From NCBI RefSeq assembly GCF_000772085.1, contig NZ_CP009755.1, positions 1,922,001 through 1,986,000 of the forward strand: a DNA stretch of 64,000 nucleotides, given 5' to 3'. Under the pieces are notes generated by a model that was not told where the DNA came from, ran no database searches, and saw nothing but the letters and a program-made list of their open reading frames with translations. Made by a program: the position numbers and the translations under genes. This document shows positions 18,129 through 40,128 of this stretch, in pieces. Source of the stretch: Curtobacterium sp. MR_MD2014. Its GTDB lineage: Bacteria > Actinomycetota > Actinomycetes > Actinomycetales > Microbacteriaceae. Position 1 is the first letter of the stretch, and each line of letters opens with the position of its first letter.

Positions 18129-18134
18129 TACGAT
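18129..18134 (+). promoter_or_regulatory. Candidate -10 of the asparaginase gene
   Basis: TACGAT ends six bases before the ATG at 18141, spacing that fits a leaderless transcript. No Shine-Dalgarno precedes this ATG. The -35 is not clear. Confidence 0.45.
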
Positions 18135-18140
18135 GACGGC

Positions 18141-19158: not shown

Positions 19159-20013
19159 TCACCCTGCGACGAGCTCGTCGACGGGATCCCCGGCCAGCAG
19201 CGGGAGCACGGGCTCGAAGGACGGCGCCACGCCGTCCCCGTCGCCGTCGCCGTCGTTCCACAGCCGGCACCCGTGCCGCGTGACCTCGATGACGCGGTCC
19301 CGTCGACGCGGGAGCAGGTGGACGCCGGGGACGAGCACCACGGTCGCCTGCACCCTGCCGAGACCGTCGTGGCGCACGGCGACCGCGGTCCCCGTCGGTG
19401 TCGGACGCACGCCGGGCGGCGCTCCGGACTGCGGACCCGCATCGGAGACGATCCGCACGCCCGCGTCCGCGCTCCCCGCCGCACCGGCTGTCCCGTCGAT
19501 GGCGGACGCGGCGAGCTGGGCGCCGAGCGCATCGAACACCGCCCGCGCGAACGCCCCGGTGCCGAGGACGACGACGTGGGACGGCGACCCGGGGTCGGCG
19601 CGGATCCGCTCGGCTCGACCGTCGGGTCCTCGTCCGAGCACCAGCCCCTCGACGACGACGGCGCCGCCGACGCCGACGCCGGAAGCGTGCGGGTCCGGGG
19701 TCCACGACGACGCCCCGACGGCGTCGCTCAGCGCGTCGTCTCCGCACACTGCTGGTGCGGCGACTGCTGGTCCGGCGACTGCTGGTCCGGAGACTGCTGG
19801 TCCGGAGACGGCATCCGTCGGCATGGTCACGACGACCGCGGGCGGAGGATCGGCACCGGTGCCCCGGACCGTCAGGGCGTCGAGCACCGCGCAACTCGCT
19901 GCGGCGACGAGCAGCACCGTCCTGGCGACCACCGGGAGGTCGCCGACGACCCCGACGAGCAGCAGCACCACGGCCGGACCGACCAGGCAGCAGCGGGCGA
20001 CGAGCGGGGACAC
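19159..20013 (-). CDS. Hypothetical membrane-anchored protein with [A/S]GPAV repeats
   Basis: The product is about 284 residues from GTG 20013. It starts with two hydrophobic helices (residues about 8-45), then a low-complexity stretch encoded by four tandem 15-bp units (19749-19808), then a soluble domain of about 170 residues with no motif I recognise. The start is uncertain because the frame remains open further up (to 20199, overlapping the FHA gene). It is the last gene of the FHA/transglutaminase/DUF58/MoxR group, 110 bp downstream of the zinc-ribbon FHA gene. The overall codon pattern supports coding. Confidence 0.6.
   Translation of the reverse strand: MSPLVARCCLVGPAVVLLLVGVVGDLPVVARTVLLVAAASCAVLDALTVRGTGADPPPAVVVTMPTDAVSGPAVSGPAVAGPAVAAPAVCGDDALSDAVGASSWTPDPHASGVGVGGAVVVEGLVLGRGPDGRAERIRADPGSPSHVVVLGTGAFARAVFDALGAQLAASAIDGTAGAAGSADAGVRIVSDAGPQSGAPPGVRPTPTGTAVAVRHDGLGRVQATVVLVPGVHLLPRRRDRVIEVTRHGCRLWNDGDGDGDGVAPSFEPVLPLLAGDPVDELVAG
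19749..19808 (-). repeat. Four tandem 15-bp repeats inside the 19159-20013 gene
   Basis: Units start at 19749, 19764, 19779 and 19794, with sequence ACTGCTGGTSCGGMG and one or two differences between copies. They keep the reading frame and encode a Gly-Pro-Ala-Val repeat. Confidence 0.85.
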
Positions 20014-20122
20014 GGACCGAGACTGACAGCCCCGCGCGTCCGGGTTCGGGCGCACGGGGCTGCTGGTGGAGACCGGGTCGCGGTCGCTGCCCTGTGGAGG
20101 AACGGCCGGCTGGCGGTCAGGG

Positions 20123-22036
20123 CTACTGCACGAGGAAGAACTGCTCCCCGATGTCGACCCGTGCACCGCGCTCCACGCGGTAGCGACGCCCGGCTTCACA
20201 GCGGCGGATGCTCCCGTCGATGTGCCGGATCACCGTGCCGTTGCCCGAGTGCCGGTCGGACACCCAGAGGTCGTCGCCGTCACGCCCGAGCTCGAGGTGC
20301 GTCTTGGACACCGACTTGCCGGGGTCGTGCACCGTGAGCAGGTCGTCGAACCGCTCGCCCGGCTGCGGTCGAGGCAGCCGGCCCAGCAGGCCCGTACCGT
20401 GCACCGCCGTGCGCTCCCCGGTGCTGAAGTGCAGCACGAACGGCGCGTCCGAGGTGGTCTTGACGACGATCCGCGTCTCCTCGACGTCCTCGTCGGGGGC
20501 GAGGTCGCCGCTCGACGGCACCGTCGTGGACCCGACGGGCGGGAGGACCGGGCCGGTCGCCCCCGGGATCGGGGGCAGCGGCGCGGCACGCGGGACCGGC
20601 GGCAGGTCGGGACCGCCGGCGCCCTGCGCCGAGGACGGCAGGGTCGGCGAAGCGGGAGCAGGCGGGACCGGTCCTCCGTCGTGTGCGCTCCGGTGCACGC
20701 CGGGCGCGGCCCCCTCGTCGTCGGCGAGGTGGCGGCCCGGCCCCGCAGCGGGCTCGTCCGACCGGTCCTCGTGCGCCTGGTCCGCGTCGGGCCGCTCGGC
20801 GTCGGGACGTCCAGCGTCAGGCCGTCCGGCGTCGGGCTGTCCGGCGTCGGGCTGTCCGGCGTCGGACTGTCCGGCATCGTGCTGTCCGGCGTCGGACGCC
20901 GCGCCGTCGCGGTGCTCGGTGCCGGACCCGGCGTCCTCGGGGACATCCGCTTGCGTCGCGTGGTCCGTGGAGCCCCGCTCGGCGCCGCCGTCGGCGGAAC
21001 CGGGGTCCGAAGGCTCGTCGTCCACACGGATCTCGTCGTCGGCCGCCCAGTCCGGCCGCGCCAGGGGCAGCGGCACGACGGGCCCGGTGAAGGCAGCCGT
21101 CACGGTCGGACGGACGGCGCCGCACTCCGCGCAGAAGATGTCATCAGGTTCGAGGGCGTGGCCGCACACCGGGCAGGTGGCCGGACCGTTCCCCGGAGCG
21201 ATCAGGGGCGTCGGTGCCGGACGACGGTCGACCAGTGGCTCCACGACGGCGGTGTCGCCGGCACGGGGACGTTCGTCGGCGGACGGCTCATCGACCTGGT
21301 CCTCGACCGGCGGCTCGGCTGCCGCGCCTCCGCGGCCCACCCACCACGACGGTCGCGACGGAGCTGCCGTCGGCTGCTGTGCGACGGGCGGCGCCCACAC
21401 CGGGGCCGTCGGCGGCGCCTCGGGCGCAGCGGACGGTGCCTCGGGCACGGGGGACGGCGTCCCGGAGCCGGACTGGTCCCCCGGGGCCGGCGCGAGACGG
21501 GTTCGTTCGGTGTCGGCCTCGTCGTCGGCGGAGGACCCCGTCGGGGACGACGGGGACGCGTCGGGATCGAGGGGCGGCTCCGGCTCCGGCTCCGACGCCC
21601 CGGACCGCTCGTCCGTGCGGTGCTGCTCGTGCGTCCACCGGTCGTCCCCGACGCGGTCCGACCGACCCGGGTCGACGCCTTCGGGGCGCAGCCACGACGG
21701 ATCGTCAGCCTGAGCTGCGGGAACGGCCGGGACCACAGGAGCGGACGGTGCGGTGGGGCGAGCGTCCCCGGTCGCGCCGGAGCGCTGCCGGTCCTCGCCG
21801 ATGAGCCACGCACGGGTCGCGGGGTCGAGCGTCGCCTCGGGCAGCCAGGCCTCGGCGGCGGGATCGGGACGGCGGCCGTGCCGGTCGGGTTGCCGAAGCG
21901 GTGGCGGCGGGGTGTCGTCGACGGGCGCAGCCGGCGCGGGCCGACGGTTCGCCGAGACGTTCACCGACCGCCCGCACTCACCGCAGAAGATCGCCCCGTC
22001 GGGCAGCATCGAGCCGCAGTGTTCGCATCTGATCAC
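20123..22036 (-). CDS. Zinc-ribbon and FHA domain protein with a long disordered linker
   Basis: The product is 637 residues. Two short zinc ribbons are present: one at the N-terminus (CEHCGS...FCGECG, residues about 4-24) and one near residue 280 (CPVCGHAL...FCAECG). They are separated and followed by Asp/Pro/Ala-rich disordered sequence, including a pentapeptide PDAGQ-type repeat. An FHA domain occupies the last 110 residues (GLLGRLPR, SVSKTHLELG, DRHSGNGTVI). FHA domains bind phosphothreonine; the segment DVEETRIVVKTTSD just before the domain resembles the phosphorylated tail of GarA-type regulators. It is three bases from the transglutaminase-like gene (overlapping ends at 22033-22036). 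It is likely the reader of the nearby kinase. Confidence 0.87.
   Translation of the reverse strand: MIRCEHCGSMLPDGAIFCGECGRSVNVSANRRPAPAAPVDDTPPPPLRQPDRHGRRPDPAAEAWLPEATLDPATRAWLIGEDRQRSGATGDARPTAPSAPVVPAVPAAQADDPSWLRPEGVDPGRSDRVGDDRWTHEQHRTDERSGASEPEPEPPLDPDASPSSPTGSSADDEADTERTRLAPAPGDQSGSGTPSPVPEAPSAAPEAPPTAPVWAPPVAQQPTAAPSRPSWWVGRGGAAAEPPVEDQVDEPSADERPRAGDTAVVEPLVDRRPAPTPLIAPGNGPATCPVCGHALEPDDIFCAECGAVRPTVTAAFTGPVVPLPLARPDWAADDEIRVDDEPSDPGSADGGAERGSTDHATQADVPEDAGSGTEHRDGAASDAGQHDAGQSDAGQPDAGQPDAGRPDAGRPDAERPDADQAHEDRSDEPAAGPGRHLADDEGAAPGVHRSAHDGGPVPPAPASPTLPSSAQGAGGPDLPPVPRAAPLPPIPGATGPVLPPVGSTTVPSSGDLAPDEDVEETRIVVKTTSDAPFVLHFSTGERTAVHGTGLLGRLPRPQPGERFDDLLTVHDPGKSVSKTHLELGRDGDDLWVSDRHSGNGTVIRHIDGSIRRCEAGRRYRVERGARVDIGEQFFLVQ
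20784..20900 (-). repeat. Seven to eight tandem 15-bp repeats in the FHA protein linker
   Basis: Seven full units of GCGTCGGRCTGTCCG type run from 20784 to 20888, with a partial eighth unit. Adjacent units at 20829 and 20844 are identical. They encode an in-frame (P/S)DAG(Q/R) repeat in the disordered linker. Confidence 0.85.
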
Positions 22037-24549
22037 GGTTCGCCTCTGTCCTCACTCGGCCGTCCACGACGCTCGCCGGCCTCCGGCCCATCGTAGTCAC
22101 CGGCCCCGGGACGCCCCTGGTCGTGGCGATCAGTGCCGGACGGACGCACCGCACCGCTCGGCCTCCGCCGAGTCGCCGGACGGCGTCGACCCCACCACCC
22201 GGCGGAGCGGAGGGACCGCAGCGACACGGCCGCCCGCCAGCGCTGGCGCCGCGTGCGGTCATCGGCCAGGCTCGCGATGGCCTCGTCCGTCGCTGACCAC
22301 ATCCGGTCCGCGGTCGCCGCGTCGACCGCCCCGGGTCCGAACACGCTGCGGTCCGCCAGCGCGGCGAGTCCGGCCCCGCCGCGCCCGGGCGCGCCGGCGA
22401 CCACCTCGCGCCGCGTCGCTGCGCCCGGCACCTCGTGCCCGCGGTCGACCAGCGCGTCCCGGTACTCCTCCCAGGCTCCGGTGACCCGGGCACGCGGTGT
22501 CGGGGCGCGGCGTCGTCGACGTCGGCGCAGCCGTTTGCGCAGCAGCACCACCGCGAAGGGCAGGAGGACGAGCGCGAGGAACCCGAGGGTCGCGAGCACC
22601 CACGGCAGGGCTGCGAGCAGCACCTGCAGCCACAGCGGCGGGACGGGCGGTGTCTCGCGGTCGCTCTGCGGCGGGGCCTGCTGGTCCTGGTCCTGCTGCT
22701 CGACGGGCGGCGGTGGGACGACGGTCTCCGGGCGCGTGACGGGTTGCGGCGTCTGGTCCTGCTCGTCCGGGATCTCGCGGAGGACGGGGTTCGGGTTGAG
22801 GGTGACCCACCCCCACTGCGCGGTGTCCACCTCGACCCGCGCGGTCACGTCCGACCCGCGCAGGGTCGTGGACCCGCCCGACGGACCGGCTGCCGCCGAA
22901 CCCGGATCCGACGAGGACCTCCGGACGTCGCCGCCCGGGGTGAACCCCATCACCACCCGCGACGGGAACCCGATCTGCCGGGCCATCAGCGCGGCGGCGA
23001 CCGCGTACTGCTCCTGGTCCCCGATCATGACCGGCGCGGTGAGGAGCTCCTGGATCCGGTCAGCGCCGTGCCCGGACCGGCTGGACCGGTCGTCGCCGAC
23101 GCCGTGGCTGACGTACCCGGTGCTGGTGAGCCACCGGACGGCCGCGACGAGCTCCTCGCCGGGCGTCCGTGCGTCCGCGGTCGTCGACTCGACCCGCTCC
23201 CGCACCGCGTCCGGCACCCCGTTCGCCGACGGCACGTCGGCGGCCCCCGGACGCGCCGAGGCGAGCTGCTCGTCGTCCGGCTGGTCGGGCAGCACGGCCT
23301 CGAGGTCGTAGCGTGTGTCCGTCCCCACCCCGCCGACCACCGCACCGGTCGACGTCGCGCGGTCGTAGAAGAAGGACCGGCGATCCTGCTCGGCGTCGGC
23401 CCCGCGGAACGTCACCGACTCCAGGTCGCCGACGGTGGGCAACCACACGCCACGGTAGGCGGCGACGTCCACCTCGACGCGCACGTCGCTGCCGCGCACG
23501 TTGCTCACGTCCACGGTCGTGGGGACCCGTTCGAAGGTGCCGGAGGCCGAGGACCCGTCGTCGCCACCCACACGGAAGACGACACCGTCGTACGTGTCGA
23601 GGGTCGCGATGCGCACGAACCCGCCCTGCGGCAGCCCGGTGACGCGCAGCTGCGGTGCGTCGGCAGCACCTGGTTCCTCGTACGACCGGAACGCGCTGAG
23701 CGGGCTCACCTCGTCCCGCGGGTCGAACGGTCGCACGACGTCGGTGCGCGCGACGCTCCGGCCGACCGTCGGCGGGGCGACCGACCCGAGACCGGTCGCG
23801 ACGACCGCAGCGGCCAGGACCGTCCCGGTGCCGACGAGCGCCGGACGCGCGACGGACCGCCACACCGGCACACGGGCGCCGACGGTCGTCGCCACGGCGA
23901 CGGCCCGGCGCGCGTGCCGGACCGTGAGCGCCCACACGAGCGCGATCCCGCCGAGGCCGACGGCGGTCGCGACCGACAGGTCCAGACGGCTCGGACCGAC
24001 CACGACGCCCGCCGCGAAGAGGACGAGCGCCGGGATGCTCGCGGTCTCCGGCCGGGAGGCACGGACCGCCACGGTCACGGCCGTCACCGTGGCGACGAGG
24101 GTCGTCACGAAGTACGGGACGAGCAGCGACTCGTAGGACCCGACCGGCAGGCTGACGGTGACCAGCCGCTTCCAGTCGAGCGCGACGCCGGCGAAGAGGT
24201 CGACGAGTCCGGGTCCGGTCGGCAGCAGCCCCGCCGACTCCCCCGGGACCGCGGCGGGCACCCCGGTCACGGTGAAGACGGCCACGGTGAGGACACCGAC
24301 GACCGCCGCCGGCAGCCGACCCAGTGCACCGGTCAGCGCGACCGCGGTGCCCGCGACCACAGCGGTGACGCCGGCGGTCACCATCGACCCGTCCCGGTGG
24401 ACCGGCCACCAGGCGGTGCTCGCCACGGCGAGCAGGAGCCAGACGACCAGGGTGCCGCCGACCGAGCGGACCGGGGCGCGCCGGCGAGCCGCTCGGCGCG
24501 TGGCGCGGCGGCCCCTGGTCGGGCCTTCGAGCGGGGGTGCGGCACTCAC
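22033..24549 (-). CDS. TgpA-like membrane protein with a transglutaminase-like domain lacking the catalytic triad
   Basis: The product is 838 residues from GTG 24549. It has six or so N-terminal helices (about 25-240), an extracytoplasmic transglutaminase-like domain (about 400-600), a further helix (about 655-680), and a cytoplasmic C-terminal region that resembles DUF4129. The domain fold is recognisable (GDQEQYAVAAALMARQIGFP, SRVVMGFTPGGD, ARVEVDTAQWGWVTLNPNP). The Cys-His-Asp triad positions are Gln512, Thr569 and Asn585, so it is probably not a cysteine transferase or protease and may act as a binding scaffold. It overlaps DUF58 by GTGA. Confidence 0.9.
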   Translation of the reverse strand: MSAAPPLEGPTRGRRATRRAARRRAPVRSVGGTLVVWLLLAVASTAWWPVHRDGSMVTAGVTAVVAGTAVALTGALGRLPAAVVGVLTVAVFTVTGVPAAVPGESAGLLPTGPGLVDLFAGVALDWKRLVTVSLPVGSYESLLVPYFVTTLVATVTAVTVAVRASRPETASIPALVLFAAGVVVGPSRLDLSVATAVGLGGIALVWALTVRHARRAVAVATTVGARVPVWRSVARPALVGTGTVLAAAVVATGLGSVAPPTVGRSVARTDVVRPFDPRDEVSPLSAFRSYEEPGAADAPQLRVTGLPQGGFVRIATLDTYDGVVFRVGGDDGSSASGTFERVPTTVDVSNVRGSDVRVEVDVAAYRGVWLPTVGDLESVTFRGADAEQDRRSFFYDRATSTGAVVGGVGTDTRYDLEAVLPDQPDDEQLASARPGAADVPSANGVPDAVRERVESTTADARTPGEELVAAVRWLTSTGYVSHGVGDDRSSRSGHGADRIQELLTAPVMIGDQEQYAVAAALMARQIGFPSRVVMGFTPGGDVRRSSSDPGSAAAGPSGGSTTLRGSDVTARVEVDTAQWGWVTLNPNPVLREIPDEQDQTPQPVTRPETVVPPPPVEQQDQDQQAPPQSDRETPPVPPLWLQVLLAALPWVLATLGFLALVLLPFAVVLLRKRLRRRRRRRAPTPRARVTGAWEEYRDALVDRGHEVPGAATRREVVAGAPGRGGAGLAALADRSVFGPGAVDAATADRMWSATDEAIASLADDRTRRQRWRAAVSLRSLRSAGWWGRRRPATRRRPSGAVRPSGTDRHDQGRPGAGDYDGPEAGERRGRPSEDRGEP

Positions 24550-25958
24550 GCGGCGGCCGCCGTCCGGTGCAACGCCTGGCGGAGGTCCTCGAGGTAGCCG
24601 ATGGTCAGGACGGTGAGCCCTGCCACCCGGAGCACCCGGGGCTGGGCCTCCGGTTCGCAGGTGACGGCGACGACCTCGACCCCGACGGGGAGGCGCGTGG
24701 CGGCGAGCCGGAGCGCGGGGAGCCCGACCGTCGACCCGACGACCAGGAACGCGACGGAGATGCCCGCCGTGTCGTTCCCGACGATCCGGGCGACCTCTGC
24801 GACGGGCAGGCACGCGTCGGACAGCCCGACGGTCGCGAACTCGTCGAGCAGGCGGGTCGGCGTGACGGTGGCGAGCCGGTGCACCGCGTAGGACGGCCGC
24901 TTCGCGTACTCCGACGTGCGCTCGGACACCACGACCGAGACGTCCCGTCCGTCGCGGACCGCACGAGCCCCGAGTGACGCGGCGGCGCTCACCGCCAGCT
25001 CGAACTCGTCGTCGTCCGCGAACTCGGCCCGACGGCTCGCGAGGGCGACGACCAGGTGCGAGCGTCGGGTGTCCTCGAACTGCCGCACCATGAGCGCGCC
25101 GGACTTCGCGGTCGACTTCCAGTGGACGGTGCGCGGGTCGTCGCCCGGGACGTACTCGCGGACGGCGTGGAAGGCGATGTCCGCCGGGGAGAGGTCGGTC
25201 GTGGCCTGCCCCTCGAGGTCGCGGACGAGTCCCGTGCTCGTCGACGGGATCGCGATCGTCCGCGGGTGGACGATGACCTGTTCGCGGGCGGTCCACACGA
25301 CCTCGCGCCGCACCAGCCCCACCGGGTCGGCCCGGACGCCGGTGACCGGTCCGACGTCGAGCACCCCGCGTCGGACCGTCGGAACGGGTACCTGTTCCTC
25401 GAACACGCCACCCGGGGCGACGGTCGGCACGGCGACGTCCACGAGTCCGTCCCCGACCGGCAGCTCCACCGTGGTCGGGACCGACGGCAACCGGGCCGGG
25501 TTCTCCGCGGTGACCACGACGCCGGCGTCGTCGCCGACCGCCACACGGTGCTGCGGCAGGCGCATCCGGACCACGAGCCGGGTCCGCCCGACGAGGGCGA
25601 CGGCGGCCACGACGGCGAGCAGCGCCCCGGCGAAGCCCACCACGACGACCTCGCGCAGACCGAAGCGGTACCCCACGGCGAAGGCGACGACCGTGACGAC
25701 GGCGACCGTCCAGCCCAGGCCGGTGACCACCGCGGCGACCTCGCCCCACAGACGCCGCACGGTCCTCCAGGCCGTCGCCCATGCCTTCGCGACCCCGACG
25801 ACGGCGTCGGCGGCCACGCCCTCGCGATCACCGACGAGTCGGGTGCGCACGTTCGTGAGCCCGGCGACCGTCGTCGTCCGCTCGGCGGCGACGGAGCCGC
25901 GACGGGACCTCGTGCTGCCGCGTCGCGTCCTGGTGCTGCCGGGACGGCGGTCGGTCAC
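24546..25958 (-). CDS. DUF58 domain protein
   Basis: The product is 470 residues from GTG 25958. Two transmembrane helices lie near residues 50-95. A beta-rich region follows, and then the DUF58 core with the signature AVREYVPGDDPRTVHWKSTAKSG and MVRQFED (about residues 250-290), which precedes a von Willebrand A-like fold. DUF58 proteins pair with MoxR AAA+ ATPases in almost all bacteria, and the biochemical role is not settled. It overlaps moxR (25955-25958) and the transglutaminase-like gene (24546-24549) by GTGA, so the three are translationally coupled. Confidence 0.92.
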   Translation of the reverse strand: MTDRRPGSTRTRRGSTRSRRGSVAAERTTTVAGLTNVRTRLVGDREGVAADAVVGVAKAWATAWRTVRRLWGEVAAVVTGLGWTVAVVTVVAFAVGYRFGLREVVVVGFAGALLAVVAAVALVGRTRLVVRMRLPQHRVAVGDDAGVVVTAENPARLPSVPTTVELPVGDGLVDVAVPTVAPGGVFEEQVPVPTVRRGVLDVGPVTGVRADPVGLVRREVVWTAREQVIVHPRTIAIPSTSTGLVRDLEGQATTDLSPADIAFHAVREYVPGDDPRTVHWKSTAKSGALMVRQFEDTRRSHLVVALASRRAEFADDDEFELAVSAAASLGARAVRDGRDVSVVVSERTSEYAKRPSYAVHRLATVTPTRLLDEFATVGLSDACLPVAEVARIVGNDTAGISVAFLVVGSTVGLPALRLAATRLPVGVEVVAVTCEPEAQPRVLRVAGLTVLTIGYLEDLRQALHRTAAAA

Positions 25959-26926: not shown

Positions 26927-26974
26927 GCGGTGGGGTCCTCGTTCTGGTGGTGGGATCGCTGCCGGGTCGTGACC

Positions 26975-29900
26975 CTAGCCTGCGGAGGAGGTACTCGGGT
27001 CGGTGCCGGACGGCGGGTCGGACGTGCCGGCGTCCGGGGTGGTGACGGCGCCGCGTGCACCGACCGGGTCCTGCTGGCCCTGCACCGTGGCCTTGACCCG
27101 GATCGAGGAGTACCCGTCGGGAACCGGGTCGCTCGTGGTCCACGGCGCGCCCGTGGCCGGGTTCGTGTCGGAGCAGACCACGGCAAGGGTGCAGTACGAG
27201 ATCTCGTAGTCATCCGGCTTCGGCAGCAGACGGCCGTTGTTGTCCGGCGGGTTGATCACCGGCGCCTGCCCGACGACCGCGCTGACCACGGTCGCCCGCG
27301 TGGTGAACGCGGTGGCGGTCGCCGGGGCGCTCGACGCGCAGTACTGTCCGTCGGTCGCGCACGCGGTGAACACCACGCTCGTCTCGAGCCCGTAGCCTGC
27401 CCCCGCCCCGAGCGACGCCGACCCGCTGAAGCGCACGCGGGGACCGCCGCCCACCGAGTAGTAGAGGTAGGGCGTGGACGCCTGCGCGGTGGCGCGGAGG
27501 CCGACCGCCCCGTCGGCGTCGGGCCCACCGGCCGGTTCGACCGTGCCCGTCGGGGCGTCGGGCGTCTGGTAGCCCTGCACGCTGGCCGGCTGCGACGCCG
27601 TGCAGAAGAGCCCGTTGTCGGCGAGGGCGACGTAGCGGTACTGACTCGTGATGCGGTCGTTCGCGGACGAACCGTTCCAGACCTTCTCGGCTCCGGCGGT
27701 CGAGCACCCGGACGGGATCGGGGTGGACGCCGCGTACTTCGCGATGCGCCAACCGGGGGTCCCGCCGGCCCAGTCGGCCTCGGACGCGCTGAGGGCGACC
27801 GCGGTCGTCGATCCGTCCGGCTGTCCCGTGGCCGACAGCTCCGGCGTGCCGGGGGCACCGACGGCCGAGCCGGTGGCCGACGCGTCGTTCCACTGCACCG
27901 GGCTGCCGTCGCGGTCGGCGGCGTTCCGGGCGGAGACCCGCACCGTGTACTCGGCGCCGCTCTGCGCGCCCGGGAAGGACGTGCTCGTCGCGGTCCCGAC
28001 GTTCTTCGTCGCCGACAGTCCCGGACCCTGGACGGACACGACGTAGTTCGAGACGGACGATCCGCTGTTCGGCGTCGCCACACGGTCCCACGCGACGTCG
28101 AGTTGGTCCGGCGTCGCGCTGCTCGGCGTGACGCGCACGCCCTTCGGCGCTGCCGGGACGAAGTCGGCGCTCATCGGCGCGGACTGCGGCGAGGGCTCCG
28201 AGTCGCCGACGGCGTTCCGAGCGACGACGGAGAAACGGTACGACGCGGACGGGTCGATGCCCGTCAGGGTGCAGACCGTCGCGGTGCCGCAGTCCTTCGC
28301 GACGCCGTTCGTCCCCTGGACCCGGTAGCCGGTGATCGGTGCGTTGTTCGCCTGCGGGGTGGCCCACGTCAGCGTCAGCTGGCCACCCTGGAACGTGCCT
28401 GTCCGGGTGGGCGCGCCCGGCGCGTCGGGAGTGTCCTGGACGGCGATGGTCACGTCGCCCCAGACGTACCGGGACGGGTCGTCCGTCGCGTCGGCGACCT
28501 GGTACTGCAGGTGCGCGTCGACGGGTTGGGCACGGTCGCCGACGGTGACCTGGAGTCGGGACCGGTCGGCACTGGGCGTCACGCTCACGCCGGCGGGGAG
28601 ACCGCCCGAGAGTCCGCGGATGGCGACGACCCGCAGCCGCTGGTCGGGGAACGGGTTCGTCGCCTGGTCGTTCGCCAGGACGTCGATGGTCGCGGTCGTG
28701 CCACGCTCGACGACCGCCCGGTCCGCCCCGGGCTGCACGAGCGGCCTGGTCGAACCGACGATGCCGACCCGAACCACCCCGGCGCGACCGGCGTTCGCGT
28801 CGTCCGACACCCCGATGCCGATCGAGGCCGTCGTGTCCTTCCGGGCGTCCTCCGCCACCGAGATCCGGAGCTGCTGGCCCTGCACGGTCGCGGTGGTGCC
28901 GGCGCCCGGGCGGCTGACCACCGAGTACCGGAGCTCCCGGAGGTCGTCCGGGTACGGGTAGTCCGTCAGCTTCGTCAGGTCGAGGGTGCGGGAGTCACCG
29001 GGCTGCAGGTCGATCGACGACCCGGTGAACGCCGGCGGCTGGTTCGACCGGGGTGTCACCTTGATCGGGAGCACGAGCGTCGCGACGCGGCCCTTGCCGC
29101 CGTTCGCGCTCGACCCGTCGGTGACCTCGAACGAGATCGACGCGTTGCCGTAGTACAGCTTCGAGGACGTGAACTGCAGCGTGGACCGGTCGACGACGAG
29201 GTCCTGCCCGTTCGCGTGCGTCGCCTTGACGGTCCCGCGATCGGTGATCTGCGCGGTCCGTCCGTTGGCCGTGACCACGTAGCGGTCGAGCGGGATGCGC
29301 ACGGTGGCCTCGCTCTTCACGGTCACCGCGCCCACGCTGCGGTCCACCTGCGGCAGGGCGTCGTCGAACCCGGGCACGTGGACGAACCCGTAGGCGACGA
29401 CGTCGGGGTGGTCGCTCCGGGTGACGGAGAACGGCACGACCTGTGACGCGTCCGTCAACCGGATCTCGATCCGACGGTCGCTCGTGACCCGGGCGGTGTC
29501 GCCGTACCCGTCGACCACCCCGACCTCGAGGCGGGAGGTCGACCCCTCGGCGAAGAAGACGTTCTGCAGGACGTCGACGGTGACGCTCTCGCGACGCAGG
29601 ATGTCCTGCAGGTCGAGCGTGGTGTCCTCGACCTCGGGACGGAGCGGCGGGGCGTCGCGGTCGACCGTCACCGTCAGGAACGCGGTGCTGGAACCGCCGC
29701 TCTCGTTCGTGACGGTGTAGAGCACCGCGAAGTCGCCCTCGGTCGCCGAACGCGGTGGCGTGACCCGGACCTGGCTGCGGTGGAGCACCTCGGCGGTGAC
29801 CCCCGGGGCGGTCGGCTCGGCCGCGGTGACGGACAGCTGCCCGCCCTCCGGGTCGGAGTCGTTCTGCAGCACGCGCACGGTCACGGACCCACCGGGGCGG

Positions 29901-32812
29901 ATGGTGACGTGGTCGGCCTGGGCGACGGGGTTCGATGCCTGCTCCGCACGGGGGCTGATGCCGACCCGGACCGTGCCGGTCGCGCGGGCACCCAGCGCGT
30001 CGACCACCGTGTAGGTGAACTCGTCGGTCCCGGCGGAGTAGTCCCCGGCGTCGTAGGTCAGCGCATCGGCGGTGACGTCGCTGACCGAGCCCTTCTCGGG
30101 GTTGTCGCCGACCCCGACGAGCTGCACCGAGTCGCCGTCGGGATCGGTGCCGTTCAACGGCACGGTGATGCGCACCGCCTGCCCCGCGACCGCGCGCGCC
30201 GTCACGGTCTTCGGCACCGGCGGGTTGTTCGTCGCGGCGTCACGCTCGCGCACCGAGATCGACACGGACGCGTCCGCGTACTGCCCGTCCGGACCGTGGA
30301 CGCGGTAGACCGCGGTGTGGTTGCCGGGTGTGTCCGGGGCGAGGTACCGGAGCCGGTCGCCGGACACGAAGAGCAGCCCGCCGTCACCGGGCACGTTCTG
30401 CACGAGCTGCGGGTCGAGCGTCAGCGGCTCGCCCTCCGGCTGGGTGTCGTTCGCCAGCACGTCGATCTCGGCGACGTCGCCGACCCGCACCGTGGCGGAG
30501 TCGGACTGCGCGACCGGCGGCTGGATGCGGTCCGGTCGCGGGATCTCGACGACGGTGATCGTCCCGGTGGCGCTGGCCAGACCGTTCGACTCCGTGTACG
30601 CGAAGGTCACCGGTGCGTCGAGCGGCGCGGTCAGGGTGACCCGCACGACGTGCTGGTCGAGGATGCTCGCCTCGACCCCGCTGCCACGGCCGGGGCCGTC
30701 GAGCGCCGTGACCATGAGCACACCGCCGGCCGGGTCGGTGTCCGTCGCGGTGACGTCGGTGTCCTTCGTCGAGAGGGTGGTCACGAACACCGTCTTCGGC
30801 GTCGTGATCGGTGGTGTCGAGGCGTCGGGCGGAGCGAGCACGGAGACGCGCACGACGCCGCTCGCGGTCTTCGTGCCGTCCGTGACGGTGTACTCGAGCT
30901 GGTGGTCCCCCGCTCCGGCCCCCTGGACGCGGAACGTGCCCGCGTCGTAGGACGGGGTGACCGTCAGGCCGCTCGACGAGGAGACGCTGGTGAGCGTGAC
31001 GGCTCCGTTGCCCCCGCGGACGTGGTCGAGCGGCGTCACCGTGAACGCCTTGCCCGCGTAGCCCTGCACGGCGAACGCGTCGGCGCGCAGCGGCACGCTC
31101 CCCTGGGCGGCGACACGCACGGTCATCGATCCGCGGCCGGGGTCGCGGCCGTCGCTCACGACGAGCTGGACGCTGCGGTCACCGGTGCGACCGCTCGCGT
31201 TGCGGAAGTCGAGCAGCCCGTCCGGTGTCGTGGAGACGCGGTCGCCGTCCGCCGAGGCGGACTCCAGGTAGACCGGGTCGCCGTCGGGATCGACCCAGTC
31301 CGACAGCACGTCGGTGACGACGTGCCCGTTCTGCACGACGTCCGCCGAGGTGCTCCGGACCTGCCGCGGTGGCTCGTTCTCGGACTCGGGGCGGACGGTC
31401 ACCCGGACGGTCGCGCTGGCCGACCCGCCGTTGCCGTCGGTGATCGTGTACGGGAACGAGAGCGTGCCGCTGGCCTCCGCCGTGAGCGAGACCTGGAGCC
31501 GCTGGCCGTCACCGACGACGGCGACGCTGCCCTGGCCGTCGGGGACGTCGCCGACCTCGCTGATGACGAGTGGGTCGCCGTTGGGGTCGTAGTCGTTGAG
31601 GAGCACCGGCAGGCTGGTCGTGCGACCCGGTCGTGCGCCGAGGTCGTCGTCCACCGCCACGGGCGGCTTCTGCTCCTTGTCCACCTGCGGGTCGTCGTCC
31701 GACACCCGTTCCTGCTGCCGCTCGTCGTCCTGGTCGACCAGGTCCGCCCAGTTGTCGATGAGCTGTCCACTGCGGCCGATGGCCCACGACCGCCCACTGC
31801 GCGGGTCGTTCGCCACGACGGTGTCGCCGTTGTGCACGATCTGCAGGTCGTCGGCGTCGGCGGTCTGCGCGAGCCGCTGGAGGCCGGTGCCCCGACACGA
31901 GTCCATCGCCTGTCCGCCCGCCCACGCGGCGTAGGTGCAGGAGCCGACGACGGTCGGTCGTGCCGCTCGACCCGACACCCGGAGCGCGGTCCGGTCCACC
32001 TGACCGGAGGCGGAGACGCGCACCAGCCCGGCCGTCCCGGCGACGAGGACCGTGGACGAGGAGTCCGAGGACCGCTGCAGCGCGGGCGATCCACCGACGC
32101 GGTCGCCGAGGTCGACGCTGTCCCCGTCGACCGAGAGCTGCCCCGAGGTGCGGTCGAGCACGGCGACGTGGTCCCCGAAGGACGCCACCTGGAACTCGTG
32201 GCTGCGGTCGAACCGGACCTCCCACCGCCGCTCGACGGTCAGCTCGGTGCCGACGTCGACGAGGGAGGCGCGGCCGGTGCGCGGCGAGTACACCGCGACC
32301 CGCTCGTCGGAGGCGTCGAGGACGGCGTCGGCGCCGAGGCTCAGGTCGGCCTTCGTGGACGCGTCGAAGTCGGACAGCTCGGCCGCCGGGGTCGCCCAGA
32401 GCTCGCCCGTGTCGCCGTTCCCGACCACCGCGGTGTCCCCCGCGAAGAAGACCTGCGGCGAGCCCGCCGGCAGCGTCACGGCATCGCCCACGGTGGCGTC
32501 GGCGACGTCGACCTTCGCGACGGTGCCCTTCGTGCCGTCCACGCTGTACACCTCGGAGCCGCGCTGCACGACCGAGAGGTCGTCGCTCGGGGTGTCGACG
32601 GCGGTGTTGAGCTCGAGCACGCCGGTGTTCGCGCGCCCGACGGCGCCGTACTCCGCCGACGGCACCCAGACGGTGCCGTCCCCCAGGTCGACCCGTTGGG
32701 TGTGGTACCCCGTGGACACCACCGCGGCGGTCGCGACGACGGCGCCGACGAGGATCGACGCGCAGGCCGTGACCGCCGCGGAACGGTGCTCGGCGAGGAA
32801 CGCCCGGATCAC
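26975..32812 (-). CDS. Giant membrane-anchored surface protein: beta-propeller, cadherin-like repeats, Fn3 domains
   Basis: The product is 1,945 residues from GTG 32812. A single N-terminal helix (about 13-35) should anchor it with the rest outside. Residues about 40-340 look like a beta-propeller (repeated ADLSLGADAVLD/VAVYSPRTGRASLVDV-type strands). An acidic Gln/Asp linker follows. Then come about a dozen 90-100 residue cadherin/Big-type Ig repeats with calcium-like motifs such as NDYDPNGDPL, DTDPAGGVL and NDSDPEGGQL, two Fn3 domains (about 1500-1700), and a C-terminal domain ending in a Thr/Ser/Pro tail. No LPXTG motif is seen. It overlaps the kinase gene by GTGA (32809-32812), so expression is coupled to it. 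Confidence 0.9.
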   Translation of the reverse strand: MIRAFLAEHRSAAVTACASILVGAVVATAAVVSTGYHTQRVDLGDGTVWVPSAEYGAVGRANTGVLELNTAVDTPSDDLSVVQRGSEVYSVDGTKGTVAKVDVADATVGDAVTLPAGSPQVFFAGDTAVVGNGDTGELWATPAAELSDFDASTKADLSLGADAVLDASDERVAVYSPRTGRASLVDVGTELTVERRWEVRFDRSHEFQVASFGDHVAVLDRTSGQLSVDGDSVDLGDRVGGSPALQRSSDSSSTVLVAGTAGLVRVSASGQVDRTALRVSGRAARPTVVGSCTYAAWAGGQAMDSCRGTGLQRLAQTADADDLQIVHNGDTVVANDPRSGRSWAIGRSGQLIDNWADLVDQDDERQQERVSDDDPQVDKEQKPPVAVDDDLGARPGRTTSLPVLLNDYDPNGDPLVISEVGDVPDGQGSVAVVGDGQRLQVSLTAEASGTLSFPYTITDGNGGSASATVRVTVRPESENEPPRQVRSTSADVVQNGHVVTDVLSDWVDPDGDPVYLESASADGDRVSTTPDGLLDFRNASGRTGDRSVQLVVSDGRDPGRGSMTVRVAAQGSVPLRADAFAVQGYAGKAFTVTPLDHVRGGNGAVTLTSVSSSSGLTVTPSYDAGTFRVQGAGAGDHQLEYTVTDGTKTASGVVRVSVLAPPDASTPPITTPKTVFVTTLSTKDTDVTATDTDPAGGVLMVTALDGPGRGSGVEASILDQHVVRVTLTAPLDAPVTFAYTESNGLASATGTITVVEIPRPDRIQPPVAQSDSATVRVGDVAEIDVLANDTQPEGEPLTLDPQLVQNVPGDGGLLFVSGDRLRYLAPDTPGNHTAVYRVHGPDGQYADASVSISVRERDAATNNPPVPKTVTARAVAGQAVRITVPLNGTDPDGDSVQLVGVGDNPEKGSVSDVTADALTYDAGDYSAGTDEFTYTVVDALGARATGTVRVGISPRAEQASNPVAQADHVTIRPGGSVTVRVLQNDSDPEGGQLSVTAAEPTAPGVTAEVLHRSQVRVTPPRSATEGDFAVLYTVTNESGGSSTAFLTVTVDRDAPPLRPEVEDTTLDLQDILRRESVTVDVLQNVFFAEGSTSRLEVGVVDGYGDTARVTSDRRIEIRLTDASQVVPFSVTRSDHPDVVAYGFVHVPGFDDALPQVDRSVGAVTVKSEATVRIPLDRYVVTANGRTAQITDRGTVKATHANGQDLVVDRSTLQFTSSKLYYGNASISFEVTDGSSANGGKGRVATLVLPIKVTPRSNQPPAFTGSSIDLQPGDSRTLDLTKLTDYPYPDDLRELRYSVVSRPGAGTTATVQGQQLRISVAEDARKDTTASIGIGVSDDANAGRAGVVRVGIVGSTRPLVQPGADRAVVERGTTATIDVLANDQATNPFPDQRLRVVAIRGLSGGLPAGVSVTPSADRSRLQVTVGDRAQPVDAHLQYQVADATDDPSRYVWGDVTIAVQDTPDAPGAPTRTGTFQGGQLTLTWATPQANNAPITGYRVQGTNGVAKDCGTATVCTLTGIDPSASYRFSVVARNAVGDSEPSPQSAPMSADFVPAAPKGVRVTPSSATPDQLDVAWDRVATPNSGSSVSNYVVSVQGPGLSATKNVGTATSTSFPGAQSGAEYTVRVSARNAADRDGSPVQWNDASATGSAVGAPGTPELSATGQPDGSTTAVALSASEADWAGGTPGWRIAKYAASTPIPSGCSTAGAEKVWNGSSANDRITSQYRYVALADNGLFCTASQPASVQGYQTPDAPTGTVEPAGGPDADGAVGLRATAQASTPYLYYSVGGGPRVRFSGSASLGAGAGYGLETSVVFTACATDGQYCASSAPATATAFTTRATVVSAVVGQAPVINPPDNNGRLLPKPDDYEISYCTLAVVCSDTNPATGAPWTTSDPVPDGYSSIRVKATVQGQQDPVGARGAVTTPDAGTSDPPSGTDPSTSSAG

Positions 32813-34218
32813 CCGGCACTCCCGATCGTGCCGCACTGTTCGGGACTCGCGGCCCCCGTCCTGCCGTCCCGGTTCACCGCGACCGTGATGCACTGCTCGG
32901 TACCGGGATCCCCGGACACGACGAAGGTGGTGCCGGTCTGCTGGCTCGTCGCGCCGGCCGACGTGATGACGTAGGTGTCCCCGGCACGGAGCCCGGGATC
33001 GTCCCAGCTGAAGGACACCGAGTCGCCTCCCCCGCGTGCGGTCACGTCGCGCACCGTCGGGACGGACCCCGTGCCGGCGCGCGTCACGAGCAGGACGCTC
33101 ACCACGGCGAGGGCCGCGACCACGACGACACCGGCCGCGCCGGCGACCACGAGGGTCGAGCGCTTCCGGCGACGCGCGATCGTCGCCGACCCGGTGCGGT
33201 GCACGGTGCCGACGCTCTGGACGCCGACGGACGTCCCGCCCCGCACCGCCCGCCGTGTCCGTCGGCGGGCCGCCACACGCGAGGGTGCCTGCAGTTCCCG
33301 CACGACGGTCCGGTCGCCCTCCGACGACGGGGTGGCCACCGCCCACGACTCGACCGCCACGTCGGCCGGGGTCTGCGGGATCCCGAGCTCCGCCTCGACC
33401 TGTTGGAGCCCGCGGACGAACTCCATCACGGTGGCGGGACGAGCAGCCGCACGACGGGCCATCGCCGTCGCGAGCAGCCGTTCGAGCGACGGGGGCACGT
33501 CGGTCCGGCCGGTCGACCCCACGCCGCCCTTGTCGATCCGGTCCATCAGGTCTGCCGCCGAGTTCCTGCCGCCCGGGACCTCGAACGGAGAGCGCCCCGC
33601 GAGCAGCGAGTACACGGTCGCTGCGAGCGAGTAGACCTCGGACTGGACGGTGCCGCGGGACTCGTCCCCCAGCACCTCGGGCGCGGACCACGGGATGGAC
33701 ATGCCCACCGGCTCGTCGGGGTCGGCGCTGCCGATGGTCGCGGCGATGCCGAAGTCGGAGAGGACGGGGCTGCCGTACGCGGTGCGCAGGATGTTCGAGG
33801 GCTTCACGTCTCGGTGCAGCACGCCCTCGCGGTGGGCCGTCTCGAGCGCGGAGCCGATGCGGACACCGACGGCCAGGACCTCGGACACGGGGAGCGGCTC
33901 GCGTCGGTAGCGCTGGCTGAGCGACGACGAGCACAGCTCCATGACGAGGTAGGGACGGCCGTCGGCCGCGATGCTCGCCTGGAACACCGTGAGGATCGCG
34001 GGGTGCGTGCTGAGCCGCGCCATCAGGTTCGCCTCGGCCTGGAACATCTGCCGCACGCGCTCGTCCACGACCTCGTCGAGGAGCACCTTCACCGCCACCT
34101 GCCTGCGTGGCATGTCCTGCTCGTAGAGGAAGACGTCGGCGAAGCCCCCGGAGCCGAGGACGTGGACGGGGGTGAACCCGGCGATCACCGGCGGGTCGGA
34201 CGGCAGGCGTCGAGCCAT
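32809..34218 (-). CDS. Transmembrane serine/threonine protein kinase with an extracellular Fn3-like domain
   Basis: The product is 469 residues. The Hanks-type kinase is intact: Gly loop LGSGGFADVF (21-30), Lys44, Glu62, catalytic loop HRDVKPSN (Asp137), DFG (Asp155) and APE (179-181). A basic juxtamembrane linker (about 300-354) holds DRTVVREL, followed by one helix (about 355-378). A C-terminal extracellular domain of about 85 residues has Fn3-like spacing (FSWDDPGLRAGDTYVITSAG) and two cysteines. The start is ATG at 34218 with an AAGGGAA ribosome site. It heads the coupled chain with the giant protein, moxR, DUF58 and the transglutaminase-like gene. Confidence 0.94.
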   Translation of the reverse strand: MARRLPSDPPVIAGFTPVHVLGSGGFADVFLYEQDMPRRQVAVKVLLDEVVDERVRQMFQAEANLMARLSTHPAILTVFQASIAADGRPYLVMELCSSSLSQRYRREPLPVSEVLAVGVRIGSALETAHREGVLHRDVKPSNILRTAYGSPVLSDFGIAATIGSADPDEPVGMSIPWSAPEVLGDESRGTVQSEVYSLAATVYSLLAGRSPFEVPGGRNSAADLMDRIDKGGVGSTGRTDVPPSLERLLATAMARRAAARPATVMEFVRGLQQVEAELGIPQTPADVAVESWAVATPSSEGDRTVVRELQAPSRVAARRRTRRAVRGGTSVGVQSVGTVHRTGSATIARRRKRSTLVVAGAAGVVVVAALAVVSVLLVTRAGTGSVPTVRDVTARGGGDSVSFSWDDPGLRAGDTYVITSAGATSQQTGTTFVVSGDPGTEQCITVAVNRDGRTGAASPEQCGTIGSAG

Positions 34219-34274
34219 CAGCGTCGTTCCCTTCCCCGGCCCGCGGCCGGCCCTTCCGTTCGTCGCGGCCAGGC

Positions 34275-34280
34275 CATTCT
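34275..34280 (-). promoter_or_regulatory. Candidate -10 for the kinase operon
   Basis: TAGAAT on the minus strand lies 57 bases before the kinase ATG, in the only gap of this size inside the signalling locus. A weak -35-like GTC-rich element is upstream, but the spacing is poor. Confidence 0.4.
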
Positions 34281-34327
34281 ACGAAGGGCGATCCGACAGC
34301 CGGCGGCCGTGGGCGTCCCTGTGGAGG

Positions 34328-34357
34328 ACGACCATCCCCCACTTCGGGGGTGGTCGT
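34328..34357. terminator. Hairpin terminator between the PP2C and kinase genes
   Basis: ACGACCA pairs with TGGTCGT and CCCCC pairs with GGGGG around a short loop, 13 bases after the PP2C stop codon. It separates the FHA-PP2C transcript from the kinase operon. Confidence 0.65.
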
Positions 34358-34370
34358 ACGGGTGCGACGC

Positions 34371-35192
34371 TCAGTGGCGCGGCAGGGTGTCCTCGACGTC
34401 GGAGTCCTCCGGTGCGGTGTCGACCTGCACGACCACCACGGTGACGTTGTCACGACCGCCGGCGACCACCGCGTCCCCGACCAGACGTTCCGCCAGTGCC
34501 TGTGCCGCGGGCACCCGGGCCGCGATCCGGGCGATGCCGACGTCGCCGAGCTCCTTGGTGAGGCCGTCGGAGCAGACGATGTAACGGTCCCCCGCGCGGA
34601 GCGGCAGGGTCCACCAGTCGGGCTCCGGGGGCTCGCCGAAGCCGACTGCCCGCGTGATGACGTTGCTGTCGGGGTGCTGCTCGGCGTCCTCGGCCCGGAG
34701 CAGCCCGGCGTCGACCATCTCCTGCACGACCGAGTGGTCGATCGTCACCCGACGGAGCGCGCCGGACTCGATCCGGTAGGTGCGGGAGTCGCCGACGTTG
34801 AAGACCAGCGCTGCCGGCTGCCCGTGGGACGCGACGAGTGCGACCCCGGTCACGGTCGTGCCGGCGCCGAGGGCGTTGCCACCGGCAGCGCGCTCGATGT
34901 CGGCGGTCGCGAGCAGCAGCGCGCGCTGGATGTCCTGACGGCTGGTGAAGGCACCGCTGGTGACCTGGTCGAGACGACGGACGACCGCGTCGCTCGCCCG
35001 GTCACCCGCGAGGTGTCCGCCCATGCCGTCGGCGACCACGAAGAAGGGTGCGCCGACGAGGTAGCTGTCCTCGTTGTGGTCGCGACGGCGACCGACGTCG
35101 GTCGCCGCTCCCCACGAGAGCGTCAGGGGTGTGCCGGCAGCGCCGGGGACGTCGATGGCGTGCTCGGTGGCAGCTCGGCCGAGTTCGGTCAC
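34371..35192 (-). CDS. PP2C-family protein serine/threonine phosphatase
   Basis: The product is 273 residues from GTG 35192. The metal-binding motifs of PPM phosphatases are all present: DHNEDSY (about residue 42), VADGMGGHLAGD (about 55), NVGDSRTYRI, CSDGLTKEL and GRDNVTVVVVQ. There is no transmembrane helix, so it is cytoplasmic and likely reverses the phosphorylation made by the neighbouring kinase. The C-terminal tail (EDSDVEDTLPRH) is acidic. The start was chosen for the ribosome-site-like AGAGAG upstream and for a 52-bp gap after the FHA gene; the frame is open further 5'. Confidence 0.93.
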   Translation of the reverse strand: MTELGRAATEHAIDVPGAAGTPLTLSWGAATDVGRRRDHNEDSYLVGAPFFVVADGMGGHLAGDRASDAVVRRLDQVTSGAFTSRQDIQRALLLATADIERAAGGNALGAGTTVTGVALVASHGQPAALVFNVGDSRTYRIESGALRRVTIDHSVVQEMVDAGLLRAEDAEQHPDSNVITRAVGFGEPPEPDWWTLPLRAGDRYIVCSDGLTKELGDVGIARIAARVPAAQALAERLVGDAVVAGGRDNVTVVVVQVDTAPEDSDVEDTLPRH

Positions 35193-35244
35193 GGTTTCAG
35201 GGTCGCTCTCTGGGAGTGGAGGGGCGTGCCGGACGATGGGTCCG

Positions 35245-35976
35245 TCACGGGGCCGGCGGGAACGGTGGGAGGCCGTCGTCCGGTCCGGCCCGGAGGTGCG
35301 GCGACAGGACCTCGATGACGTTGCCGTCACCGATCTCGACGAGCGTACCCGTCAGGACGACGATCGATGCACCCGCCGTCATCCGGAACGGCGCGGCGCC
35401 GGGAGGGCGGACGACGGTCCCGTTCGTCGACCGCAGGTCCGCGACGACGGCGGCCTCGCCCTCGGCGTGCAGCAGCACGTGCGACGACGACACCTGGCCG
35501 CTCGGCGACGGGACGGTCACCAGGACCGGCCCGCCGTCGACGACGACGCGCGGCGCGGCGGGCCGACGACCCACCACCAGGGGCCGGTCGAGGCGGACCA
35601 CCCGGCCGCCGACGCGGACCGACGGGGTCCGTCGGACGAGCGGCCCGTCCTCGGCACGTGGTGCTCCCGCTCCGGGCGGCACCACCGGCAGTGGACCACC
35701 GGGACGAGCACGCAGGACCGTGTCCTCGTCGGACGGTCCGGCCCCCGGTCGCGCACCGCGCCCGGGCCGGACGACCGTGTCGCCGTAGGGGTCGCCGTAC
35801 GGATCGTCGTCGAGGGCACCGTCGGCGGCCGCAGCGGCGGCGCCGAGGGCACGGAGGCCGGCGCTCCCCGTGCGGGACGGGTCACGACCTGCGTCGGTCG
35901 GCGACGGTCGGGCACCGGGGCGCGCACGGATGACCGTGTCGTCGTCCTCGCGCACCGGTTCCCGCACCATGGTCAT
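35245..35976 (-). CDS. FHA domain protein with three T-V-x-R repeats
   Basis: The product is 243 residues. The N-terminal half is disordered and repeats a short motif three times (DDTVIRARPG at Thr14, DTVVRPGRG at Thr67, DEDTVLRARPG at Thr86). The C-terminal half is an FHA-like domain (LDRPLVVGRRP, SSSHVLLHAEG, DLRSTNGTVV; about 125-235). The repeats resemble kinase target sites read by FHA domains, as in GarA. The start at ATG 35976 overlaps the upstream membrane gene by ATGA, which fixes it. It is followed by the PP2C gene. Confidence 0.86.
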   Translation of the reverse strand: MTMVREPVREDDDTVIRARPGARPSPTDAGRDPSRTGSAGLRALGAAAAAADGALDDDPYGDPYGDTVVRPGRGARPGAGPSDEDTVLRARPGGPLPVVPPGAGAPRAEDGPLVRRTPSVRVGGRVVRLDRPLVVGRRPAAPRVVVDGGPVLVTVPSPSGQVSSSHVLLHAEGEAAVVADLRSTNGTVVRPPGAAPFRMTAGASIVVLTGTLVEIGDGNVIEVLSPHLRAGPDDGLPPFPPAP

Positions 35977-36584
35977 CCCACCGTAGACGATCCGGTCGAC
36001 CCCGTGGGAGTGCCCCACGCCGGTCCGTGGCCGGACCGGACCGCGCGCAGGATCAACCACCCGAACGGGTCGTCCGGTCGGGAGTCGAGGGCGTGCCGGG
36101 CGCGGACCTCCGCACGGGCGGACGACCCGAGCGCCCAGGCACACCAGGCGCCCAGCGCCAGCGCACCGGCCGCCCCCACCGCGACGTCGCCGCCCGGGGC
36201 TCCGTCCGCACGCCAGGTCCGCCATGCCGAGGCACACCGGTCGCCGGCCAGCCGGAGTCGCGCGCGGTCCGGCTCCGGACCCGAGCCGCCGAGCGCGGGC
36301 GGCGTCGGATCGTGGAACGGGTCGAACGGCACGACCGTCCGGGGGTCCGGCCGGTCACGCGCGGCCAGGAAGCCGACCAGCGCGAAGCGGGTCGCGAGGG
36401 CGCCGCACGCCGTCGCGACCGCGACCGCCTGCGGTCGGGCGAGCGCTTCCGCGCCGCTGCCTCCACCGGTCGCCGCCGGCGGCGCCACGAGGGCGACGCA
36501 GGCGGCACGCAGCGTGACCGCGGCGGCGATCTCGCGCGGGTAGCGCACCAGGGTGGGTGGGAGTCCGTGTCTCGTCGAGGTCAT
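35973..36584 (-). CDS. Small membrane-associated protein upstream of the FHA gene, unknown function
   Basis: The product is 203 residues with hydrophobic segments near residues 20-40 and 55-75 and a third around 130-150, rich in Ala, Arg and Pro. No domain is recognised. It ends in an ATGA overlap with the FHA gene (35973-35976), so it is the first gene of the FHA-PP2C transcript. It may be a membrane partner of the phosphatase branch, but nothing in the sequence proves it. Confidence 0.65.
   Translation of the reverse strand: MTSTRHGLPPTLVRYPREIAAAVTLRAACVALVAPPAATGGGSGAEALARPQAVAVATACGALATRFALVGFLAARDRPDPRTVVPFDPFHDPTPPALGGSGPEPDRARLRLAGDRCASAWRTWRADGAPGGDVAVGAAGALALGAWCAWALGSSARAEVRARHALDSRPDDPFGWLILRAVRSGHGPAWGTPTGSTGSSTVG

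Positions 36585-37724: not shown

Positions 37725-40128
<2,404 letters not shown>

Follow-up and report, generated by a model that had tools for sequence, protein, structure and literature searches.

The 64,000-nucleotide stretch analysed here (the window) covers contig positions 1922001-1986000 of the complete 3.44 Mb genome of Curtobacterium sp. MR_MD2014, and ten open reading frames (ORFs) lie on its minus strand from window position 36584 to 19159. To judge from their sequences, these genes form an orthologue of the PFNA operon of Bifidobacterium. Since its catalytic Cys is missing, the TgpA-like protein of the operon is predicted to be a pseudoenzyme that is unable to act as a thiol transglutaminase. 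The operon also encodes a giant surface protein, predicted to be a length-constrained, conserved stalk with a variable C-terminal tip. We put about even chances on the operon being a non-catalytic MoxR machine, regulated by phosphorylation, that assembles an envelope rod or holds it in place. The wide range of the operon, the pseudoenzyme state and the length-constrained rod go beyond the published PFNA work that we found.

Identity and Range of the Operon

The PFNA cluster of Bifidobacterium reads pkb2-fn3-aaa-atp-duf58-tgm and is accompanied in some species by prpC, a hypothetical gene and fha (PMC8430577, PMC6803598). The genes of the window run u1, FHA1, PP2C, kinase, giant, MoxR, DUF58, TgpA-like, zinc-ribbon/FHA2 and u2. 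The five core genes (kinase, Fn3 giant, MoxR, DUF58 and tgm) are common to both and have the same order and strand. In the window, by contrast, a PP2C and an FHA gene precede the kinase gene, and the TgpA gene is followed by genes for a zinc-ribbon/FHA protein and a membrane protein; the window also lies outside Bifidobacteriaceae (family f1 as against f4). The giant of B. longum is 1,994 residues long; its Fn3 domains span 1494-1581 and 1586-1671 and are followed by a C-terminal region (PMC10688814). The window giant (26975..32812, minus strand, GTG start at 32812) is colinear with it over 1,945 residues and carries its Fn3 domains at about residues 1462-1645, again with a C-terminal region behind. 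The plan of a giant of about 2,000 residues, with two Fn3 domains near residues 1470-1670 and a C-terminal region after them, is thus found in the window. One giant profile matches both the window and Bifidobacterium, and the TgpA proteins of the two share one side of the TgpA tree; the Bifidobacterium PFNA TgpA is Cys-less like that of the window (70 of 70 read). An earlier note on this DNA held that the function of such sets is not established. That statement stands, but the set had already been named, as the PFNA operon.

PFNA has been published as 'found only in bifidobacteria'. A profile of the first 400 residues of the giant matched 163 of 297 genomes of the window's order (53 of 95 genera), a lower bound in that two genomes (G021 and G040) scored negative yet carry the giant. 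A scan of loci with species names gave 80, of which 73 are from Bifidobacteriaceae and seven from Cellulomonas, Actinotalea, Flavimobilis and one uncultured Cellulomonadaceae record. The kinase, giant, MoxR, DUF58 and TgpA are all present in 76 of these 80 loci, with giant-MoxR-DUF58-TgpA in strict order; the remaining four (L157, L166, L178 and L204) are without a piece. The operon is therefore not restricted to Bifidobacterium, and we regard the Bifidobacterium-only claim as wrong on range and not as a defining feature of PFNA. The parts of the operon's literature available to us, which included few subscription journals, hold no mention of the Cys loss or of PFNA outside bifidobacteria, and prior notice is possible.

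Across the phylum, 13 of 296 sampled genomes match the giant profile: the window genome, three more of the same family, two more of the same order, two strong matches outside the class and five weak ones. The two strong outsiders (G439 and G512, loci L250 and L251) carry the giant, MoxR, DUF58, a Cys-less TgpA, PP2C, FHA and kinase. Synteny was read in 61 giant-marker loci, 60 of them hand-picked for family and genus spread, plus L029; counts from these loci are lower bounds, as the stretches end at 20 kb or at a contig edge. MoxR, DUF58 and TgpA occur together in 55 of the 61, giant-MoxR-DUF58-TgpA in strict order in 52, PP2C in 44 and FHA in 46. Strict order in 52 of 61 marker loci, together with the 76 named loci, rejects a chance neighbourhood. 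The linkage proposed in the earlier note, between a kinase/phosphatase/FHA circuit, a MoxR-DUF58-TgpA set and a giant protein, is widespread across actinobacteria, firmly so for the core. Six genomes (G097, G053, G179, G195, G205 (C2) and G236) have two tandem giant genes, separated by a few kilobases, before one MoxR-DUF58-TgpA set.

A Dead Transglutaminase Domain

The TgpA-like protein (22033..24549, minus strand) is a polytopic membrane protein in which hydropathy marks several membrane segments and one more past a transglutaminase-like ectodomain. Its active-site motif is degenerate, approximately IGDQEQYA at residues 509-516 (about 22996..23022, minus strand), where paralogues read GYC. 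Q stands at the Cys place (GDQEQYA), T at the His place and N at the Asp place. There is no Cys among the 838 residues; the paralogue in the same genome has exactly one. The catalytic Cys is present in none of 68 operon-linked rows, and its place is taken by D in 28, Q in 14, E in 11, G in 6, A in 5 and S in 4. The catalytic His is lost in 49 of the 68 and retained in 19, and 66 of the 68 ectodomains have no Cys anywhere. A migrated Cys is rejected, because no ectodomain column holds more than one Cys in the 68 rows, or more than three in the 80 named rows. The earlier note had spoken of a transglutaminase machine, but a working transglutaminase is not what the operon encodes by these residues.

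The named rows agree, with the catalytic Cys in 0 of 80 (76 S, 4 G), but the scan was partly biased: its pattern demanded S or Q at the Cys place, so that this loss is not independent evidence. The catalytic His is also absent from all 80, Ser-bearing rows included. The giant-marker set and a Bifidobacterium genus set (g26) were chosen without a pattern on the Cys place. The latter was identified as Bifidobacterium through a 100% match of L084 (family f4) to L135 (B. pseudolongum subsp. globosum). A strong TgpA match was found in 75 of its 101 genomes, and all 70 that were read are Cys-less (62 GDSEQYA, 3 GDDEQYA, 2 GDGEQYA, 2 GNSEQYA and 1 GNGEQYA); B. longum is not among the rows identified by name. 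Left unread were G601, with a stop inside the match, G683, G627, G676 and G624. The other 26 of the 101 genomes have no strong TgpA match, and many of them measure 1.2-1.9 Mb, which agrees with the published presence of the operon in 77 of 99 bifidobacterial species.

Paralogues served as controls and were chosen without a Cys-favouring motif. Both Cys and His are kept in all 20 paralogue rows (19 genes). A second set of 20 Cys-bearing rows agrees: both residues are present in 15 of 15 TgpA rows read from 14 genomes without a giant match, and in five further rows from genomes with a giant. Of the context loci (n=21), 20 combine a Cys-bearing TgpA with the absence of a giant match. The exception, L271, is Cys-less and has a 1,722-residue Fn3 protein immediately upstream of MoxR. 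Past the lost Cys, an EQ pair occurs in 147 of 148 rows versus 1 of 20 controls. Locus L037 was kept outside the 68 rows (Cys present, no giant, another TgpA family and the same gene as control L025), L026 outside the controls as operon type, and the fragment L177_9878 outside the named rows.

The ectodomain appears to have retained its fold. Transglut_core is still matched by 41 of 41 members, and the TgpA family profile could be aligned with 6g49, the solved TgpA of P. aeruginosa, across the transglutaminase core (E-value 1.7e-4); a single-sequence search of the PDB with the full window protein gave no match, and only the family profile reached 6g49. Where 6g49 reads GFC and DAHAW, which we take to include its catalytic residues, the family profile reads GDS or GDQ and a non-His residue. 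The dead-site segment is the best conserved 50-residue segment order-wide (0.54). Decay into a pseudogene is rejected on the open frames, the EQ pair at the former Cys neighbourhood and the 41 family matches. Against this rejection, the dead-site segment within the genus (0.80) is not specially conserved.

Phylogeny was inferred with the catalytic columns blanked. A quick tree of 102 rows, from which genus near-copies and most named rows had been thinned beforehand, split Cys from non-Cys rows by one branch, with a Shimodaira-Hasegawa-like approximate likelihood-ratio (SH-aLRT) support of 98. A careful tree of 68 rows, after removal of 34 more, gave the same split (99/94), with one change in 99% of bootstrap trees; the window and Bifidobacterium TgpA lie on the same side of this branch.

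The Giant Protein as a Rod

The giant begins with a membrane segment and a propeller-like base; an Ig-like rod and two Fn3 domains follow, and from about residue 1650 comes a variable tip. The length of 1,945 residues had been correctly given before, and the giant has a single N-terminal hydrophobic segment. Measured stop to stop, giant frames at the marker loci (n=69) have a median of 2,062 residues, and 55 of the 69 fall within 1,900-2,200. Across residues 1-1400, 62 aligned giants show a gap fraction of 0.04 or less. Past about residue 1650, conservation drops from 0.84-0.95 to 0.46-0.53 within the genus, and from about 0.39-0.55 to 0.28-0.35 within the order. The stalk is thus held in length and sequence, and the tip varies. 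The N-terminal base of the window protein matched no Pfam family, and the propeller-like assignment is a weak one.

MoxR, DUF58 and Their Paralogues

The window contains the MoxR-DUF58-TgpA set as three families in order: MoxR, an AAA+ ATPase (25955..26926, minus strand) with intact motifs, DUF58 (24546..25958, minus strand) and the TgpA-like protein. The same three families occur in the same order at a second locus of this genome (L006), whose TgpA has both Cys and His; the window operon's TgpA has neither. The 20 canonical context loci lack matches to the giant, PP2C and FHA, and one of them has a kinase. The P. aeruginosa TgpA likewise aligns with the operon family in its transglutaminase core and differs in its catalytic motifs. 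A third MoxR-DUF58 locus of the genome (L005, contig 2198000-2212000) has no TgpA-like neighbour that could be recognised by eye in the ORF list.

The window DUF58 protein, with up to three hydrophobic segments, has Ala at an Asp column that is D in 21 of 21 control rows. This column, presumably part of a vWA-like metal site, has some other residue in 57 of the 77 rows from operons (34 S, 15 G, 7 A and 1 V) and D in the remaining 20. DUF58 has been associated with vWA proteins, and PFNA has been compared with the mycobacterial moxR operon (PMC12067865).

The Kinase, Phosphatase and FHA Circuit

The Ser/Thr kinase (32809..34218, minus strand) has one membrane segment by hydropathy (about residues 360-378) and an ectodomain of about 90 residues. 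Its AVK, HRD, DFG and APE motifs are intact, as are the motifs of PP2C, the Walker motifs of MoxR and those of both FHA domains, as we understand the meaning of these motifs. The PP2C-type phosphatase (34371..35192, minus strand) most likely starts at GTG 35192, not at 35330, which gives 273 residues as in most relatives. FHA1 (35245..35976, minus strand) starts at 35976 or 35970. FHA2 (20123..22036, minus strand; 637 residues) combines two zinc ribbons with a C-terminal FHA domain.

The earlier note had given the kinase an extracellular Fn3 domain, which we could not detect. The window ectodomain has no Pfam match at E<=10, and among four relatives Pfam matches were found in one only, weak and unrelated. 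An hhalign profile comparison with the giant's own Fn3 domains returned a probability of 0.3%. Neither comparison supports an Fn3 ectodomain on the kinase. In Bifidobacterium the kinase phosphorylates the operon's MoxR ATPase (PMC8430577, PMC10688814), and for B. longum PFNA both co-transcription and kinase phosphorylation of the AAA ATPase are reported (PMC8430577). Together with the intact motifs, this fits a phospho-gated MoxR machine.

Proposed Mechanism and Alternatives

The window operon would be the general actinobacterial form of PFNA, an envelope-rod system. Cytoplasmic MoxR would drive a membrane complex of DUF58 and the pseudo-TgpA, and the dead transglutaminase domain would act as a non-catalytic binding module, a clamp or receptor, for the giant. 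The complex may help to assemble, position or release the rod, which would carry the variable tip to the cell surface. The kinase and PP2C would tune the machine, most directly via phosphorylation of MoxR, as reported for B. longum Pkb2, and the FHA proteins would dock on the phosphorylated state. Cytokine binding in bifidobacteria would be a late use of the tip. We give somewhat less than an even chance to a tentative history in which the chemistry of an ancestral transglutaminase was lost a single time and the protein turned into the receptor or clamp of a length-fixed, variable-tip rod, MoxR-powered and set by Ser/Thr phosphorylation, with bifidobacterial PFNA as one late use.

Several observations weigh against this mechanism. 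The contact between the pseudo-TgpA and the giant is one that we infer, and the retained fold and the propeller-like base are read from profiles, the latter from a weak resemblance to designed propellers. The within-genus conservation of the dead-site segment is not exceptional. TgpA rows with the motif GTSEQFA (L271, G025:C21:44000-63900; L255, G475:C1:4359400-4379390) are Cys-less and stand beside MoxR and DUF58, and they lie on long branches next to the Cys-bearing rows in the tree. The direction and number of Cys losses consequently depend on the root. The Fn3 proteins upstream in these two loci (1,722 and 781 residues, respectively) show no match to the Ig-like rod; this branch may represent a sister or an older version of the system. 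A same-strand kinase lies within the stretch in only 32 of the 61 marker loci (28 upstream, 4 downstream), so that the neighbourhood check suggested earlier bears out the core linkage and finds that of the kinase looser. In four of the 61 loci (L086, L090, L111 and L133, the last of them short), the stretch shows the giant but none of MoxR, DUF58 and TgpA; L086 and L090 are perhaps solitary paralogues served by another locus. Finally, a role in surface interactions would account at least equally well for the positive selection and cytokine binding that have been published for bifidobacteria.

The main rival is a version in which information flows inward. The giant would be a gauge of surface tension or wall integrity, the pseudo-TgpA and DUF58 would read its state to the kinase, PP2C and FHA proteins, and MoxR would reset the device. 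The fixed rod length, a predicted non-catalytic binding domain and the intact phospho-circuit motifs are all compatible with such a sensor. However, the kinase lies outside the stretch in 29 of the 61 loci, which indicates that tight kinase coupling is not universal, and sensing itself is conjectural. We consider the sensor unlikely, if a serious contender. The published PFNA view, in which the kinase, Tgm and Fn3 protein sense or bind host immune signals and mediate adhesion, draws on published findings: binding of TNF-alpha by fragments of the B. longum protein, higher expression of the operon in response to TNF-alpha, and adhesion through the B. bifidum protein (PMC8430577, PMC10688814, PMC12607495). 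The tip, moreover, is the variable part of the giant. On the other side stand the length-constrained, conserved stalk and the presence of the operon across the window's order and in named Cellulomonas, Actinotalea and Flavimobilis. To our knowledge, these three genera are not gut commensals. Host sensing may hold for the tip in bifidobacteria, but as an ancestral function it is unlikely, and as an account of the operon as a whole we find it improbable.

Two further explanations deserve little credence. In catalytic envelope remodelling, a MoxR-gated TgpA-like protein would use transglutaminase or cysteine-protease chemistry to crosslink or cleave the giant or wall proteins. The Transglut_core profile does match, and Ser occupies the Cys place at most Bifidobacterium loci (62 of 70). 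The Cys-free window protein and ectodomains and the widespread loss of His, which extends to the Ser-bearing rows, make this reading very improbable. A defence role, as a conflict system of the MoxR-vWA kind in which inactivated enzymes serve as decoys, is suggested by described ternary systems that contain inactive enzymes and kinases (PMC7159879). These systems share MoxR, inactive enzyme domains, kinases and FHA with the window, but have a different partner set. The inactive domain of the window operon belongs to a syntenic core on one tree branch and is not a swapped effector, and no effector swapping was seen in operons of the window type. We consider a defence role, for which no padloc search of the operon was made, equally remote. 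The non-catalytic MoxR machine for an envelope rod is the reading that we carry forward.

Other Features of the Locus

The ORF list gives ten genes on one strand, as the earlier note had them. The Pfam matches are FHA, PP2C, Pkinase, Big_9/Cadherin with fn3, AAA_3 (MoxR), DUF58, TgpA_N with Transglut_core, and zinc ribbon with FHA. The three GTGA overlaps noticed earlier (kinase/giant, MoxR/DUF58 and DUF58/TgpA) are present, and there is a fourth at TgpA/FHA2 (22033-22036). The four-base overlap of kinase and giant recurs in 10 same-genus loci, all those with both genes read; u1 and FHA1 overlap by ATGA if FHA1 starts at 35976. Four-base gene overlaps are ordinary translational coupling. The kinase gene, in contrast, has a gap of 152 bp upstream of it, in which a second promoter may lie.

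At the upstream end, u1 (35973..36584, minus strand; 203 residues) has a C-terminal piece resembling DUF4192 (E 4.7e-5, under the family cut-off) and is present in nine same-genus loci. At the other end, u2 (19159..20055, minus strand) likely has two membrane segments near its start by hydropathy; it may start at 20055, although the ORF is extendable to 20199, and a search for a family match to it found none. By their translations, the flanking ORFs resemble an ATP synthase beta subunit upstream on the same strand (37725-39353) and an asparaginase downstream on the plus strand (18018-19133).

Significance

An operon billed as an immune sensor unique to bifidobacteria occurs in roughly every second genome sampled from a large order, and its ancestral job was therefore probably not host sensing. 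The enzyme label and the proposed role of the PFNA 'transglutaminase' need rethinking. A dead transglutaminase removes one proposed activity, and the question becomes what the dead domain binds. The genome itself offers a natural control, the paralogous MoxR-DUF58-TgpA set with its residues intact. With its constrained length and variable tip, the giant would provide a handle on the assembly of wall-spanning surface proteins in Gram-positive bacteria.

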